From: Myxococcales bacterium
GTDB lineage: Bacteria > Myxococcota > Myxococcia > Myxococcales > JAJYLH01
Assembly: GCA_021787845.1 (NCBI GenBank)
Contig: JAJYLH010000036.1
Coordinates: 1-41,253 of the forward strand
Reading direction: 5' to 3'
Length of the DNA: 41,253 nt
In this document: in pieces, positions 15,954 through 41,253 of the stretch
How positions within the stretch are numbered: the stretch's first letter is position 1
Layout: each line of letters begins with the position of its first letter
Notes under the pieces: generated by a model
Seen by the model: only the letters and a program-made list of their open reading frames with translations
The model's database searches: none
What the model was told of the DNA's origin: nothing
Made by a program: the position numbers and the translations under genes

Positions 15954-16271
15954 TTCGAATCGACGGGCATCGACCAGACATGGCGTCGACAACGGACTTT
16001 CCCGCCTCGATTCCGGCCGCTTGCCGGCGAAGGCGTCGCCCGAGCGAGAGCCTCACCCGAACGCGTCTCGGATGAACCGCCAAGACGCCAAGAGCGCCAA
16101 GCACTACGGTCAGCAAAATTGGCGTCCTCGGCGTCTTGGCGGTTCAGACGCTTTGGGGCGCGGCTCGAGCGAGCCGCCCTTGACGCCCGCCGAGAATCGC
16201 GGGAAGGTCCCCCACAATCTGTCGCCGGCGCGAGGCCTTCCGCTCGCGATTCCCGGTGCCGGTCGAGCACG
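15954..16271. other. Intergenic region with an inverted repeat
   Basis: These 318 bases separate the EamA and kinase genes. The only clear structure is the inverted repeat at 16073-16146, described separately. I see no coding potential or obvious promoter. Confidence 0.5.
16073..16146. repeat. Inverted repeat, 28-bp arms
   Basis: Arms 16073-16100 and 16119-16146 match in 25 of 28 positions and enclose an 18-base loop. Each arm begins TGAACCGCCAAGACGCC and carries a repeated CGCCAAG motif. I recall similar CGCCAAG-rich sequences between genes in other bacteria. It could act as a terminator for the EamA gene or be a small mobile repeat. Confidence 0.8.
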
Positions 16272-19524: not shown

Positions 19525-19660
19525 TTGGAGCCGGACGTCGGTGTCCGGGTGCAGGCGATGCAACCGGACATGTCGTCGGTGGTGCCCGGCCGCCGGCCGG
19601 CCGTCGGGCACCGATAGCGTTCCGGCGGCATGGACCGGAAACCGACGTGTCCGGCTCCGA
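19525..19660. mobile_element. MITE-like inverted-repeat element, diverged copy
   Basis: This 136-bp element begins TTGGAGCCGGAC and ends GTCCGGCTCCGA, with imperfect terminal inverted repeats of about 30 bp. The left end shares TTGGAGCCGGAC and GTGTCCGGGTGCAGGC with the element at 39660-39800. A central hairpin (GGTGCCCG at 19581-19588 with CGGGCACC at 19605-19612) is not present in the other copy. It lies in the convergent gap between the marC-like and carboxyltransferase genes. It codes for no protein that I can see. Confidence 0.65.
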
Positions 19661-33228: not shown

Positions 33229-33272
33229 CGGATCGGACCGATCCGACGGATCCGACCGATCGGTCCGATCGG
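33229..33272. repeat. 10-bp-periodic palindromic array behind rpmA
   Basis: About four units of the type GATCGGACC / GATCCGACC run head to tail with 10-bp periodicity; subunits such as GGATCGGACCGATCC (33230-33244) are inverted repeats. It begins 21 bases after the rpmA stop. Similar arrays lie near 36161-36200, 39530-39570 and 39860-39900. Confidence 0.75.
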
Positions 33273-33326
33273 CGGCGGGTCGTTGCAGGACGAAATCGTC
33301 GAGGCCGCGCGGCGCCTTCGCTCCGC

Positions 33327-35281: not shown

Positions 35282-35376
35282 GAGCGCCTCCGGGAAGAAC
35301 CACTCACCCTGAGCGCAGTCGAAGGGCGAGCGGTTCTTCGCGGAGGCGCTCATCCTTCGACTGCGCTCAGGATGAG
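35282..35376. repeat. Two interleaved inverted repeats before lolA
   Basis: Arm a (35282-35301) pairs with a' (35332-35351) in 19 of 20 positions. Arm b (35303-35330) pairs with b' (35349-35376) in 25 of 28, including the exact core CCTGAGCGCAGTCGAAGG. The order a-b-a'-b' means the two long pairings are mutually exclusive or pseudoknotted. b' can also fold alone as an 8-bp stem (CTCATCCT/AGGATGAG). It lies between trmH and lolA. Confidence 0.8.
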
Positions 35377-35422
35377 CGGATTTGGCTCCGTGGGCTTAAC
35401 TGGACGCGCATGGGAGGTTCCG

Positions 35423-36064: not shown

Positions 36065-36150
36065 CGCGCGGCCAAGGGAGCTGTGCCGGCGAGCGGCCCG
36101 CGACCATCGAGCGGGGCGTGGGTGTGCCAACTCGCCGGGCATGGCTCGGA

Positions 36151-36212
36151 CCGACAAGACCGATCCGACCGATCCGACCTATCGGTCCTATCGGTCCGAC
36201 CGGTCTTGTCGG
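36151..36212 (+). terminator. Long hairpin behind lolA, with decamer repeats in the stem
   Basis: CCGACAAGACCG (36151-36162) and CGGTCTTGTCGG (36201-36212) form a perfect 12-bp stem. The 38-base interior carries GATCCGACC and ATCGGTCC units that can extend the pairing. It lies 86 bases after the lolA stop and 75 bases before the next operon. No U-run is present, so termination is only inferred. Confidence 0.6.
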
Positions 36213-36287
36213 CTTCGCTTCGCGGCCTGTCGGATTCCGGCCGCCTGGGTTGCCGCGACCCCGCGCTGCCGGTACTGTCGCTAAGCC

Positions 36288-37382: not shown

Positions 37383-38704
37383 CGCTCGGCCTCGCGAAAT
37401 ACCAGCACCTCGCGGTGTCGTTCCTCGGCCGCGGCGCCCTGCGCTACGAGCGGCTGCGCCAGGAGGCGAAGCTCAAGCGCAAGGGCTCCTGGAAGAGCGA
37501 GCGCTTCGCGCCGCCCTTGTCGACTTCGCCTCGGCTCAAGGAGCTGATCAGCCTCCACTACCTGAAGGGCCGCACCGCCGACGAGCGCGGGCCCGTCGCC
37601 TGGGTGACCTCCGGCGCTCCCGTGGAGTTCCTGGTTGCGCTCGGCTACTACGTCCTCTATCCCGAGAACCACGGCGCGGTGTGTGGAATCCGGCGGGTGT
37701 CGGAGAAGATTTCCGTCCACGCCGAAGACGCCGGCTATTCGCGCGACCTCTGCTCGTACGCGCGCACGGACATCGGCGCCGCGCTCTCGGGGGAGACGCC
37801 GGTCGGACGCCTACCGAGACCGGACCTGCTGGTTGCCTGCACCAACATCTGCCAGACCGTTCTGCTCTGGTACCAGGTGCTCGCCGCGCACTTCCGGGTG
37901 CCGCTCGTCATCATCGACACGCCGTTTCTCTACGGCGAGGCGACGGAGCGCGACATCGACTTCGTGCGAAAGCAGATCGAGGAAGCGGTGGCGGTGGCGG
38001 AGCGCGTCGCGGGCCGGTCGCTTTCCGAATCGCGCCTGATGCAGGTGACGCGCCGGTCGAAGGAGGCGACGGAGCTGTGGCTGAAAGTGATGGAAACGGG
38101 GAAGGCGAAGCCGGCGCCCATCACGGCTTTCGACGAGTTCATCCACATGGCGCCGATCGTGGAGATGCGAGGCGAGCAATTCACGGTCGACTACTACCGC
38201 GCGATGCTCCAGGAGCTCGAGGCGCGCGTGCGCCAGGGTAGCGGCGCCGTCCTGCGCGAAAGGAAGCGGCTGATCTGGGACAACCTCCCGATTTGGCCGC
38301 GGGTGCGCTGGCTCTCGGAAAAGCTGGCGGACCGAGGCGTGTCGCTCGTCGCCTCGACGTACACCAACGCCTGGGGAGAGCTCGCGGACCTGGTCGATCC
38401 GGAGCACCCGCTCGAGAGCGCCGCGAAGGTCTACCTGCACCCGATTCTGAACCGCGGCACCGGCCACAAGCTCGCGACGATGGAGAAGATGGTCCGCGAC
38501 TATCAGGCCGACGGCGTCATCCTCCACAGCGACCGCTCGTGCAAGCCGTACTCCATCGGCCAGATGGATCAGCGGGAGCGGCTGGGGACCGCGGCCGGAG
38601 TCCCGGCGCTGCTGCTCGAGGCCGATCACAACGACCCGCGCTCGTTTTCGGAGGAGCAGGCGGCGAGCCGGCTGGCGGCGTTTTTCGAGGTGCTGGAGGC
38701 ATGA
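37379..38704 (+). CDS. 2-hydroxyacyl-CoA dehydratase/benzoyl-CoA reductase-family subunit (larger)
   Basis: The 441-residue protein is the second catalytic-subunit homologue of the operon. Features include [23 protein letters not shown], Cys102 (AVCGIRR), Cys125 ([11 protein letters not shown]), Cys154 and Cys158 (ACTNICQT) and Cys388 ([12 protein letters not shown]), which include the expected cluster ligands. [12 protein letters not shown] and ITAFDEF are also family-like. The ATG at 37379 overlaps the upstream stop by 4 bases, and its own stop overlaps the activator start likewise. The sequence fits HgdA/BcrB-like proteins but not clearly one substrate class. Confidence 0.87.
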
Positions 38705-39480
38705 GCGACGCCGCCTCGATTCGGGCGCTGGGCATCGACGCGGGCTCGACGACGATGAAGATGGTCGGCGTCGACGCCGAGGGTGCGCTGGTCTGGCACG
38801 CGCTGGAGGAGATGGATCCGCGCATCGAGGCGCAGGCCGAGCGGCTCCTCGACGTGGTGCGCGCCGACGGGTGCCCGGATTCCCTGCCGCTGATCGCCAC
38901 CGGCTACGGCCGGAGGCTCATCACCCGCGCGGATCGCAAGGTCACGGAAATCACCTGCCACGCGCGCGGCGTCCATCGCGAGCTCGGGCACGGCGGAACG
39001 CTGATCGACATCGGCGGGCAGGACAGCAAGGTCATCGTGGTCAGCGAGGAGGGGAAAGTCGTCAACTTCAGCATGAACGACAAGTGCGCGGCGGGCACCG
39101 GACGCTTCCTCGAAGTGGTCTCCGGCCGCCTGCGGATGCCGATGGACGCCTTCGCGGACACGGCGCTGGCGGCGGACGGCGAGGTCGGAATCTCCTCGAC
39201 CTGCACGGTCTTCGCCGAGTCGGAGATGATTTCGCTCCTGGCGCACGGCGCGCCGGTGGAGCGCATCGTGCGCGGGCTGCACCGGTCGCTCGTGCAGCGC
39301 GTGAGCGCTCTGGCTCGCGGCGCGGGCCTCCGCCCTCCGGTGATGCTTTCCGGAGGCGTCGCGCGTAGCCGCGCGATTCGCACACTGCTCGCGGAGACGC
39401 TGCGCCAGGAAATCGTCCTTCCCCGGCACCCGCAGCTCATGGGCGCCTACGGCGCGGCCTTGCTCGCGCTGGGCGCGTGA
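38701..39480 (+). CDS. ATP-dependent activator of 2-hydroxyacyl-CoA dehydratase (HgdC type)
   Basis: The activator is a homodimeric ASKHA-fold ATPase with one [4Fe-4S] cluster at the dimer interface. It pushes a low-potential electron into the dehydratase or reductase with ATP hydrolysis. The 259-residue protein has the phosphate-binding motifs [12 protein letters not shown] and [10 protein letters not shown], and cluster ligands Cys129 ([14 protein letters not shown]) and Cys168 ([11 protein letters not shown]), close to Cys127/Cys166 of Acidaminococcus Hgd[14 protein letters not shown] is the C-terminal nucleotide motif. A single activator rather than two subunits favours a HgdC-like over a BcrAD-like system. 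The start overlaps the previous stop (ATGA). Confidence 0.93.
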
Positions 39481-39593
39481 GGCGAGCGGCGACGTCGCAT
39501 CCGACGGGCGTTCCGGGCAGCCCCCCGATGTCCGATCGGACCGATCGGACCGATCCGACCGATCGGTCTGATGGCCTGCGGTTTTCTGCGGGC
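39471..39593. repeat. Direct repeat, copy 1
   Basis: This 123-bp segment, which includes the last 10 bases of the activator gene and a decamer palindromic array (about 39530-39570), is repeated nearly identically at 39802-39922 (121 bp, a short indel and a few substitutions). The two copies flank the inverted-repeat element at 39660-39800. Confidence 0.85.
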
Positions 39594-39659
39594 TCGAGCC
39601 GCGGGCGTCAGCCCGCGGGAGCCGCCCGACGAAACCTGGACTGGGCGACGCCCGCCAAA

Positions 39660-39800
39660 TTGGAGCCGGACACGTGAGTGTCCGGGTGCAGGCAGTGCCA
39701 TTGCCGCTTGGCTCGCCGTTTCGGTGGCCGCAGCGATTTCGGCTCATCGTGATCGACGATGGCACTGCCTGCACCCGGCCACTCGCGTGTCCGGCTCCAA
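39660..39800. mobile_element. MITE-like element with 42-bp terminal inverted repeats
   Basis: The ends 39660-39701 and 39759-39800 are inverted repeats matching in 40 of 42 positions, starting TTGGAGCCGGACACG and containing GGGTGCAGGCAGTGCCAT. The 57-base centre shows no coding potential. A diverged relative lies at 19525-19660. No target-site duplication of a few bases is obvious. Such a non-coding palindrome could be moved in trans by a transposase elsewhere. Confidence 0.75.
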
Positions 39801-39801
39801 C

Positions 39802-39922
39802 GGGCGCGTGAGGCGCGGCGGCGTCGCATCCGACGGGCGTTCCGGGCAGTCCCCCGATGTCCGATCGGACCGATCGGACCGATCCGACCGATCGGTCTGA
39901 TGGCCTGCGGTCTTCTGCGGGC
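39802..39922. repeat. Direct repeat, copy 2
   Basis: The second copy of the segment at 39471-39593. It starts one base after the inverted-repeat element and contains its own decamer array. It carries a copy of the last bases of the activator gene (GGGCGCGTGA) without the gene. It lies 35 bases before the stop of the coiled-coil gene. Confidence 0.85.
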
Positions 39923-39957: not shown

Positions 39958-40836
39958 CTACCCCGCGGCGGGCGCCTGGGCCGGGGGCGTTCCCGCCTGG
40001 GCCTGGATGTCCGCGAGCTGCTTGCGATAGACCTCGGCGGTGGCCGTCAAGTCGGCGAGCTGCTTCTGGAGGTCGCCGTTCTTCGTCTGGACGTCGACGA
40101 GCAGGGCGCTCAAGGCCGTATTCTGCTTCTGGAGGTCGGCGTTCTGGGCGGTCAGGTCGTCGACCTTCTTCTGGAGCTCCTCGAGCTTCGGGTCGACCTT
40201 CTTCTTCTTCGGCGGAGTCGGCTTGAAGTGGGCGTCGTTGAAGGCGCGCTCGCCGGGGTGGCGAGCGGTGAGGTTGCCCTCGACCTGGCGGGAGACGGCG
40301 TTCGAGCCGCTCTTCGCGTCGGTGGCCGCCTGCTGGTTCGCGGTCTGGGCCGCGGCGTTGGTCGCGGCCTTGTCGAGGATGGCGGCGTGGAGCTTGTAGA
40401 TGCCGTGAAATCGCTTGCCGGCGTCCTTGAAGACGGTCGGGCAGGTCGCGCCCGTCACCACCGCGTCGATGTCCTGGAGCGTCTGGTCGCGCTGGGCCTG
40501 CGTCGCCCTGCCGAGGAGGTTCGCGGCGCTGGTCGCGAAGACGGGGGTCCAGCTCTTCCCGGCGGGGGAGGCGATGTACGCCTTCTCGATCTTCTCCAGC
40601 TCGCGGACGACCGGGTCGAGGAGGAGAATGACGATGTGGTCGCCGCCGCGAAGCTGCTGGTCGAGGTCGCCGGCGGAGTCCTGCGCCTGCTGGACGGCGT
40701 GGAGGGCCCCCAGCGCCGCATCCACCGGGCCGAGGAGGTCCTGGTTCCCCGGCGAGTAGGTCAGCGAGCCCTTGAGGAAGTTCTGCCAGTCGATGTGGAT
40801 GGGGACCGAGTCGGTTTCGGTGGGGTGCGCTGCCAT
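39958..40836 (-). CDS. Coiled-coil protein of unknown function
   Basis: The 292-residue protein has no signal peptide. Residues 1-190 are mostly helical with no recognised domain (begins MAAHPTETDSVPIHIDWQNF, with a single Cys in the segment VTGATCPTVF). A basic stretch PTPPKKKKVDPK near residue 210 precedes a coiled coil of about 60 residues with leucines in heptad spacing and repeated LQKQ/LTAQN units. The tail is AQAGTPPAQAPAAG. The ATG at 40836 is supported by GCGAGGA seven bases upstream and by a candidate promoter. It is isolated between repeat-rich regions. Function unknown. Confidence 0.75.
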   Translation of the reverse strand: MAAHPTETDSVPIHIDWQNFLKGSLTYSPGNQDLLGPVDAALGALHAVQQAQDSAGDLDQQLRGGDHIVILLLDPVVRELEKIEKAYIASPAGKSWTPVFATSAANLLGRATQAQRDQTLQDIDAVVTGATCPTVFKDAGKRFHGIYKLHAAILDKAATNAAAQTANQQAATDAKSGSNAVSRQVEGNLTARHPGERAFNDAHFKPTPPKKKKVDPKLEELQKKVDDLTAQNADLQKQNTALSALLVDVQTKNGDLQKQLADLTATAEVYRKQLADIQAQAGTPPAQAPAAG

Positions 40837-40976: not shown

Positions 40977-41054
40977 GTAGGATGGGTGGAGCGCAGCGCA
41001 GCCCATGACTCGCGGCCGTCGCTGATGGGCTCCCCTCCGCTCCACCCATCCTAC
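40977..41054. repeat. Intergenic inverted repeat, 17-bp perfect arms
   Basis: GTAGGATGGGTGGAGCG (40977-40993) and its exact complement (41038-41054) enclose 44 bases with a further AGCCCAT/ATGGGCT pair. I recall GGATGGGTGGAGCG-type repeats between genes of several proteobacteria. Non-coding; it lies directly before the 41-bp tandem repeat. Confidence 0.85.
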
Positions 41055-41058
41055 GAGC

Positions 41059-41253
41059 TCGACGAAGCCGTCTCGGGGGCAAGAATCGGGATCGTCGCCT
41101 CGACGAAGCCGTCTCGGGCGCCAGAATCGGGATCGTCGCCTCGACGAAGCCGTCTCGGGCGCCAGAATCGGGATCGTCGCCTCGACGAAGCCGTCTCGGG
41201 CGCCAGAATCGGGATCGTCGCCTCGACGAAGCCGTCTCGGGCGCCAGAATCGG
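41059..41253. repeat. 41-bp tandem repeat at the window edge
   Basis: Units start at 41059, 41100, 41141, 41182 and 41223; the fifth is cut by the window end. The first unit has two substitutions and the rest are identical. The unit begins TCGACGAAGCCGTCTCGGG. 41 is not a multiple of three, so a coding role in one frame is unlikely unless the period-3 product (123 bp) is used. Confidence 0.95.

Follow-up and report, generated by a model that had tools for sequence, protein, structure and literature searches.

A 141-base element with inverted ends in the window, by which we mean the whole analysed stretch of 41,253 nucleotides (C141:1-41253 of a 6.24-Mb Myxococcales assembly in 153 contigs), is very probably a REPIN tied to RAYT1, a gene on another contig of the same genome. 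As an overall explanation, we think it likely that the REPIN was spread by the RAYT1 system, the enzyme of which probably no longer cuts. The element is of a known kind; its variant features are the class 3-like partner with a replaced tyrosine, a REP layout that recurs across phyla and the nesting of some copies in ISL3-like MITEs.

The window element and its surroundings

The arms of the element (39660-39701 and 39759-39800) are identical at 40 of 42 positions and enclose 57 bases, as the first-pass annotation had described. The inverted-arm match is far above chance, a repeat finder stretches the arms to 47 nt (91 %), and folded as single-stranded DNA the element reaches -67.1 kcal/mol compared to a shuffle mean of -28.6 (z = -11.3; none of 200 shuffles was equally good). 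The REP in each arm has a 24-base layout composed of a GGAG foot, the arm CCGGACAC, a four-base loop and the arm GTGTCCGG, followed by GTGCAGGC (Table 1).

Table 1 Features of the window and of the two RAYT loci. Positions without a contig or locus label refer to the window.
Feature	Position	Strand	Basis and remarks
REPIN, two inverted GGAG-tagged REPs and 57-nt centre	39660..39800	.	Arm match, fold
Left REP, consensus GGAGCCGGACAC GTGA GTGTCCGG, 0 mismatches	39662..39685	+	Pattern scan
Right REP, loop GCGA, 1 mismatch	39775..39798	-	Pattern scan
REPIN centre, probably non-coding	39702..39758	.	No CDS called
Second family REPIN, right REP partly decayed	19525..19660	.	Sequence, REP scan, fold
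Different hairpin repeat, GAGCCGCGGGC GTCA GCCCGCGG	39596..39618	+	Fits foot/arm/loop layout
RAYT1	C84:47077-47679	-	PF01797 profile match; 200 aa, open frame from ATG
Second RAYT, ordinary	C24, L060:1324-1788 (locus L060:1100-1970)		PF01797; keeps YIIENP

The same annotation had pointed to a relative of the element at 19.5 kb. This is a real copy of the family, with the qualification that GCCTGCACCCGGACAC of the window copy is missing from its right-hand REP; its left REP has a shorter loop region, and it folds with z = -5.8. At up to 3 mismatches, GGAGCCGGACACNNNNGTGTCCGG matches the window 5 times versus 0.01 expected, and these matches correspond to 3 hairpins, as both strands of one hairpin can be matched. 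Two further relatives, C84:83617-83760 and C92:63911-64055, each share 79 % with the element over positions 1-141.

Upstream of the element lies a BcrAD_BadFG ATPase gene (38293-39480, +), a real gene that was missed by our codon-usage gene caller, which is crude. Downstream, a converging ORF has its stop at 39958 (-), and its ATG16 match is weak and below the cut-off. Within the window, Rfam gave no match at gathering score and ARAGORN no tRNA.

Other repeats share this region. The hairpin repeat with a GTCA loop stands 41 bases ahead of the REPIN and has 20 exact matches in the genome (0 for the backwards control). A stricter pattern for hairpins of this layout found no matches in the window and also missed this copy, hence it was too strict. 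A 119-bp direct repeat (39475-39593 and 39806-39922, 96 %) brackets the REPIN. We considered it as a giant target duplication and rejected this; only its ~40-bp CCGATCGG core recurs genome-wide while the full length does not, and it is therefore probably a local duplication. Look-alike palindromic arrays of the CCGATCGG type are found at 33231-33289, 36144-36229, 39534-39592 and 39863-39921, and the one at 39534 is a member of a dispersed family. Additional inverted repeats lie at 35282-35380 (TTCGACTGCGCTCAGG type) and 16073-16146 (CCGCCAAGACGCCAAG type), and at 40977-41054 there is a GTAGGATGGGTGGAGCG inverted pair of GTAG type, unlike the repeat beside the RAYT gene of contig C24. Tandem arrays occupy the window's start (1-310, 9-bp units) and its end (41058-41253, 5 copies of 41 bp).

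Organisation and distribution of the REP family

The REP family is dispersed, with about 180 or more copies in the genome, in agreement with the first-pass suggestion of such a family on the strength of two members. The non-palindromic 16-mer GTGTCCGGGTGCAGGC matches the genome 188 times at up to 2 mismatches (87 and 101 on the two strands; backwards control, 2 and 5). The 24-mer REP has 276 and 274 matches with no control matches (0 and 0); since many hairpins are counted once per strand, the sum of 550 does not serve as a copy number. A copy lies no more than a few hundred bases from the start or end of several contigs, and the copies may therefore be undercounted in the assembly. In a 441-kb sample, made up of stretches of contigs C56 and C92 taken for their length together with the window, there are 27 REPs, 11 of them without mismatch.

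By contrast with this genome, the REP does not occur as a dispersed family in 98 other genomes of the order, none of which is from the same family as the source genome. Near-matches were found in 35 of these, at most 6 in each and 63 in total, compared to 0 to 2 each and 16 in total for the backwards control, indicating that isolated similar sites exist in other genomes of the order. The case that the first-pass annotation had named against its reading, two copies only and none in relatives, thus has one side each way: the copies are many, yet no dispersed family appeared in those 98 genomes.

The REPs are mostly arranged as inverted pairs with GGAG outward. Neighbouring REPs within 300 bp in 554 kb, a set in which most loci were chosen via REP hits, comprise 38 '+-', 4 '-+' and 17 same-strand pairs; the corresponding numbers in the 441-kb sample are 7, 1 and 7, with five of the last 7 in one array. 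Such an array, of seven REPs, is seen in a called ORF at C92:41323-41837, where five gaps measure 48 bases (period 72, a multiple of three). The foot is GGAG in 102 of 151 REPs and GAAG in 27, which differs from the 5' GT[AG]G tag of the GTAG-REP superfamily. Of 106 REPs that have no more than 2 mismatches, 92 have a GYNA loop, as do 100 of the 151 in a less stringent set. Both bases are altered in 32 stem pairs, where independence would predict 8.7, and 21 of the 32 are Watson-Crick; as 17 of the 21 are the same A-T to G-C change, they possibly reflect one inherited event or one lineage.

Inverted REP pairs thus exist in many dispersed and mainly extragenic copies: 85 of 118 REPs lie outside called CDS in DNA that is 82 % called coding, and 33 lie inside, as judged by the crude caller. 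This placement, the strong hairpin and the position of the window copy between converging genes would fit REPs whose retention and spread serve a host role (terminator, protection of mRNA 3' ends, supercoiling or protein-binding site) to which RAYT1 is irrelevant. We regard this as highly improbable. A called gene stands on either side of 56 REPs, and the gene pair is divergent for 23 of these and convergent for only 6; transposase-flanking repeats of another phylum have the same loop and foot layout, as set out below; and a host role leaves the origin of new copies unexplained.

RAYT1 and its replaced tyrosine

The first-pass annotation proposed looking for a RAYT gene with the same ends in its flanks, and RAYT1 is a candidate of that description. 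PF01797 matches two places in the genome, on contigs C84 and C24, and only the former has REPs of the window type. RAYT1 is a single-copy gene enclosed by six such REPs, four upstream (0 mismatches) and two in its own 3' end (0 and 2 mismatches). The GGAG feet point outward around it, and the gene core thus occupies the place of a REPIN centre. The RAYT on C24, an ordinary one, scores 81.2 bits with REP_Tyr_transpos (cut-off 80) and sits between two pairs of GTAG-REPs that have 77 and 89 genome matches (control 0). The two systems are alike in residing in the same genome and in having a gene flanked on each side by REP pairs, whereas their REP sequences are unrelated.

RAYT1 falls below the cut-offs of the family profiles: 21 of 23 bits for PF01797, 22.5 of 55 for IS200 and 16.9 of 80 for REP_Tyr_transpos (NF047646). 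Its predicted structure has a mean pLDDT of 82, with residues 153-199 below 50; this tail is a read-through into the REPs. The model matches ISDra2, IS608, other IS200-type transposases and the RAYT-REP complex 4er8 at E below 1e-3. In the structure search, 30 chains were retrieved at E up to 1e-3, none of another fold, with TM-scores by query of 0.40-0.46. RAYT1 is therefore predicted to adopt the IS200 fold, and it resembles class 3 TnpA_Y1, having HVH (the HUH motif), W-T and, five residues beyond the catalytic position, a Gln.

We scanned named genome contigs and obtained 194 encoded relatives of RAYT1. The best 80 of these, with identities of 28 to 41 %, were retrieved. Among these 80, 78 carry names that we take to be planctomycete and 2 are titled only 'bacterium'. 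Three of 195 genomes of the window's own phylum match RAYT1 at 1e-4, its own genome included. After removal of 6 of the 80 relatives with flanks that were too short, 74 loci were left, and a 14-mer common to the upstream and downstream flank is present in 64 of them, compared to 69 of 1456 mismatched pairs, 55 of 400 random own-genome windows and 1 of 61 outer ends. A layout with an NNAG foot, CC at the start of the stem, a GYNA loop and an arm ending in GG (NNAG-CC..GYNAG..GG) has at least 2 matches in 46 of the 74 loci and in 3 of 74 for reversed sequences, the pattern having been written after viewing the flanks of these same loci. An example is CTAGCCCGGAACGTCAGTGACGGG (L081) alongside GGAGCCGGACACGTCAGTGTCCGG. 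That the REPs of the planctomycete relatives and the window REP have this layout in common supports the pairing of REP and RAYT1. With a slightly looser pattern, two loci in one genome of the phylum (L069 and L070) have one motif-like match each, and the former keeps its Tyr. A weak relative in a genome of the order (L063 in G024, 29 %) has five motif-like matches with the looser pattern, three of which are one hairpin with a GTCA loop.

Residue 146 of RAYT1 is His, where all 80 fetched relatives, the best of the 194, have Tyr; the Y----Q of the class 3 signature is thereby broken. Profile alignment places this column opposite the Tyr in QYIENQQ of IS608 TnpA, which we take to be the catalytic Tyr127. 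The placement of Q131 of IS608, as given in the available text of PMC6006769, agrees with this. There is no other Tyr in RAYT1 between residues 73 and 185, the latter being in the REP-derived tail, and, of 12 almost invariant positions, the protein deviates at three besides this one, including the Asn before HVH. Two TnpA_REP proteins in which Tyr was mutated to Phe failed to cleave, according to the portion of PMC8266576 on which we draw. Given His at 146, the other changes at conserved positions and these mutants, RAYT1 has probably lost the ability to cut, as judged from its sequence, and we consider it fairly likely that it is inactive at present.

An enzyme that is still active with His in place of Tyr, or a domesticated REP-binding protein, would account for the open frame of 200 codons, the retained HVH and downstream Gln, and the 11 of 27 REPs in the 441-kb sample that are exact to the consensus, which suggest recent activity. 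The uncleaving Tyr-to-Phe mutants speak against activity, and both the other conserved-position changes and the low-confidence read-through tail fit decay; we judge an active or repurposed RAYT1 unlikely.

Proposed modes of spread and comparison with known systems

The element is very probably a non-autonomous inverted REP pair which, when single-stranded, takes the shape of a long hairpin. RAYT1 or a recent ancestor probably recognised single-stranded REPs by their NNAG foot and GYNA loop, and would then have cut and rejoined them, spreading REPINs from single-stranded DNA, for example at the replication fork. With the change from Tyr to His, RAYT1 would probably be unable to form the 5'-phosphotyrosine bond, and present REPINs would be fixed in place or be moved solely by recombination or within terminal-repeat MITEs.

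We extracted 32 REPINs, and by spacer similarity these form groups of 13, 6, 3, 2 and 2 with six singles. Both GGCTC-type MITE ends are carried by 12 of the 13 (one of the 12 is cut by a contig end) and 5 of the 6, while in the other two REPINs of these groups one or both ends are absent. Thus, 17 REPINs, the window copy not among them, are nested in two MITE families, MITE1 and MITE2. As judged by eye, at least five of them stand between identical 8-bp direct repeats, namely the copies on C65, C38, C6 and C152 (MITE1) and C19 (MITE2). A degraded ISL3 transposase relic (C16:41165-41434; PF01610, 73 bits, one stop) has the terminal repeat of MITE1 at its end; no ISL3 relic could be connected with MITE2. 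The nesting and the relic's end suggest that, for part of the REPIN family, multiplication probably took place inside ISL3-like MITEs, as their cargo. We had considered the 13 and 6 near-identical REPINs as proof of whole-element copying by RAYT and rejected this, as most sit in larger MITEs; that these largest groups are mostly explained in this way counts against RAYT1 as the spreader. No empty site, that is a MITE1 without REPIN, was found at 19 places (12 aligned and 7 read), each of which held a REP or a REP remnant, so transposition itself is presumed rather than seen.

The nesting raises the question of whether the window element is itself a classical MITE, derived by deletion from a DDE-type IS with terminal inverted repeats and target-site duplications. 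Its inverted ends and short non-coding centre would be expected, and the 17 REPINs inside GGCTC-ended repeats, the 8-bp direct repeats and the ISL3 relic sharing the MITE1 end lend this reading some weight. However, by eye, the window copy has neither a target-site duplication in its flanks nor GGCTC ends, the flanks of the C92:63911-64055 copy, which has a related centre, are unrelated right up to the REPs, and the element ends in REP hairpins, in which the stems covary and the loop is constrained. A classical MITE is therefore improbable, and of the first-pass assignment to a REP or MITE type, the REP part holds, as an HUH-linked REPIN, while for the window copy the classical MITE lacks support. 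Starting from the preferred reading of a REPIN spread by the RAYT1 system, one may go further and suppose that RAYT1 is now a tyrosine-less REP-binder, that its REPINs are now partly copied as ISL3-like MITE cargo in a hand-over from HUH to DDE, and that the GYNA loop and NNAG foot are a class 3 recognition code across phyla; taken together, this is a speculative and unlikely proposal.

The REPINs described here are like those of Pseudomonas fluorescens SBW25, in the portion of PMC3116915 compared, in being dispersed inverted REP doublets that form hairpins and cluster beside a single-copy RAYT. Unlike them, they have a class 3-like RAYT1 with the catalytic Tyr replaced, a GGAG foot and some MITE-nested copies. 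The titles and abstract openings of open-licence publications among the matches listed contained no tyrosine-less RAYT and no MITE-borne REPINs, and the compared parts of the REPIN and REP papers centre on GTAG-type systems.

Class 3 TnpA_Y1 are described in the available text of PMC6006769 as rare, found mainly in Planctomycetes, Acidobacteria and Proteobacteria, and needing experiments; they have atypical flanking hairpins with a CnGA foot and the signature NHVH / W-T / Y----Q. RAYT1 is like them, to the extent of that text, in its HVH, W-T and Gln five after the catalytic position, its high-copy flanking hairpins and its largely planctomycete relatives, and differs in having His for Tyr and Ala for the Asn before HVH. 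The commonest foot here, TTGGAG (70 copies), is TGGA in the published register, not the CnGA given there, and the inverted-pair organisation seen here is absent from what the class 3 section of that paper provides. A class 3-like pair with a replaced catalytic residue offers a natural test of what becomes of a REPIN population when its enzyme may fail, and the many planctomycete pairs allow the concrete layout of an NNAG foot and GYNA loop to be put to the test.

The Marinomonas and Stenotrophomonas REPtrons, as presented in the part of PMC8266576 used, differ in having a GTAG foot and a group 3 TnpA_REP, with a three-base loop in Stenotrophomonas. The Stenotrophomonas REP, with its 8-bp perfect stem, can nevertheless be likened to the REP here, and in Marinomonas the enzyme is selective for T, T and A at positions 1, 2 and 4 of the loop, which parallels the GYNA loop of this family, where the third position is free.
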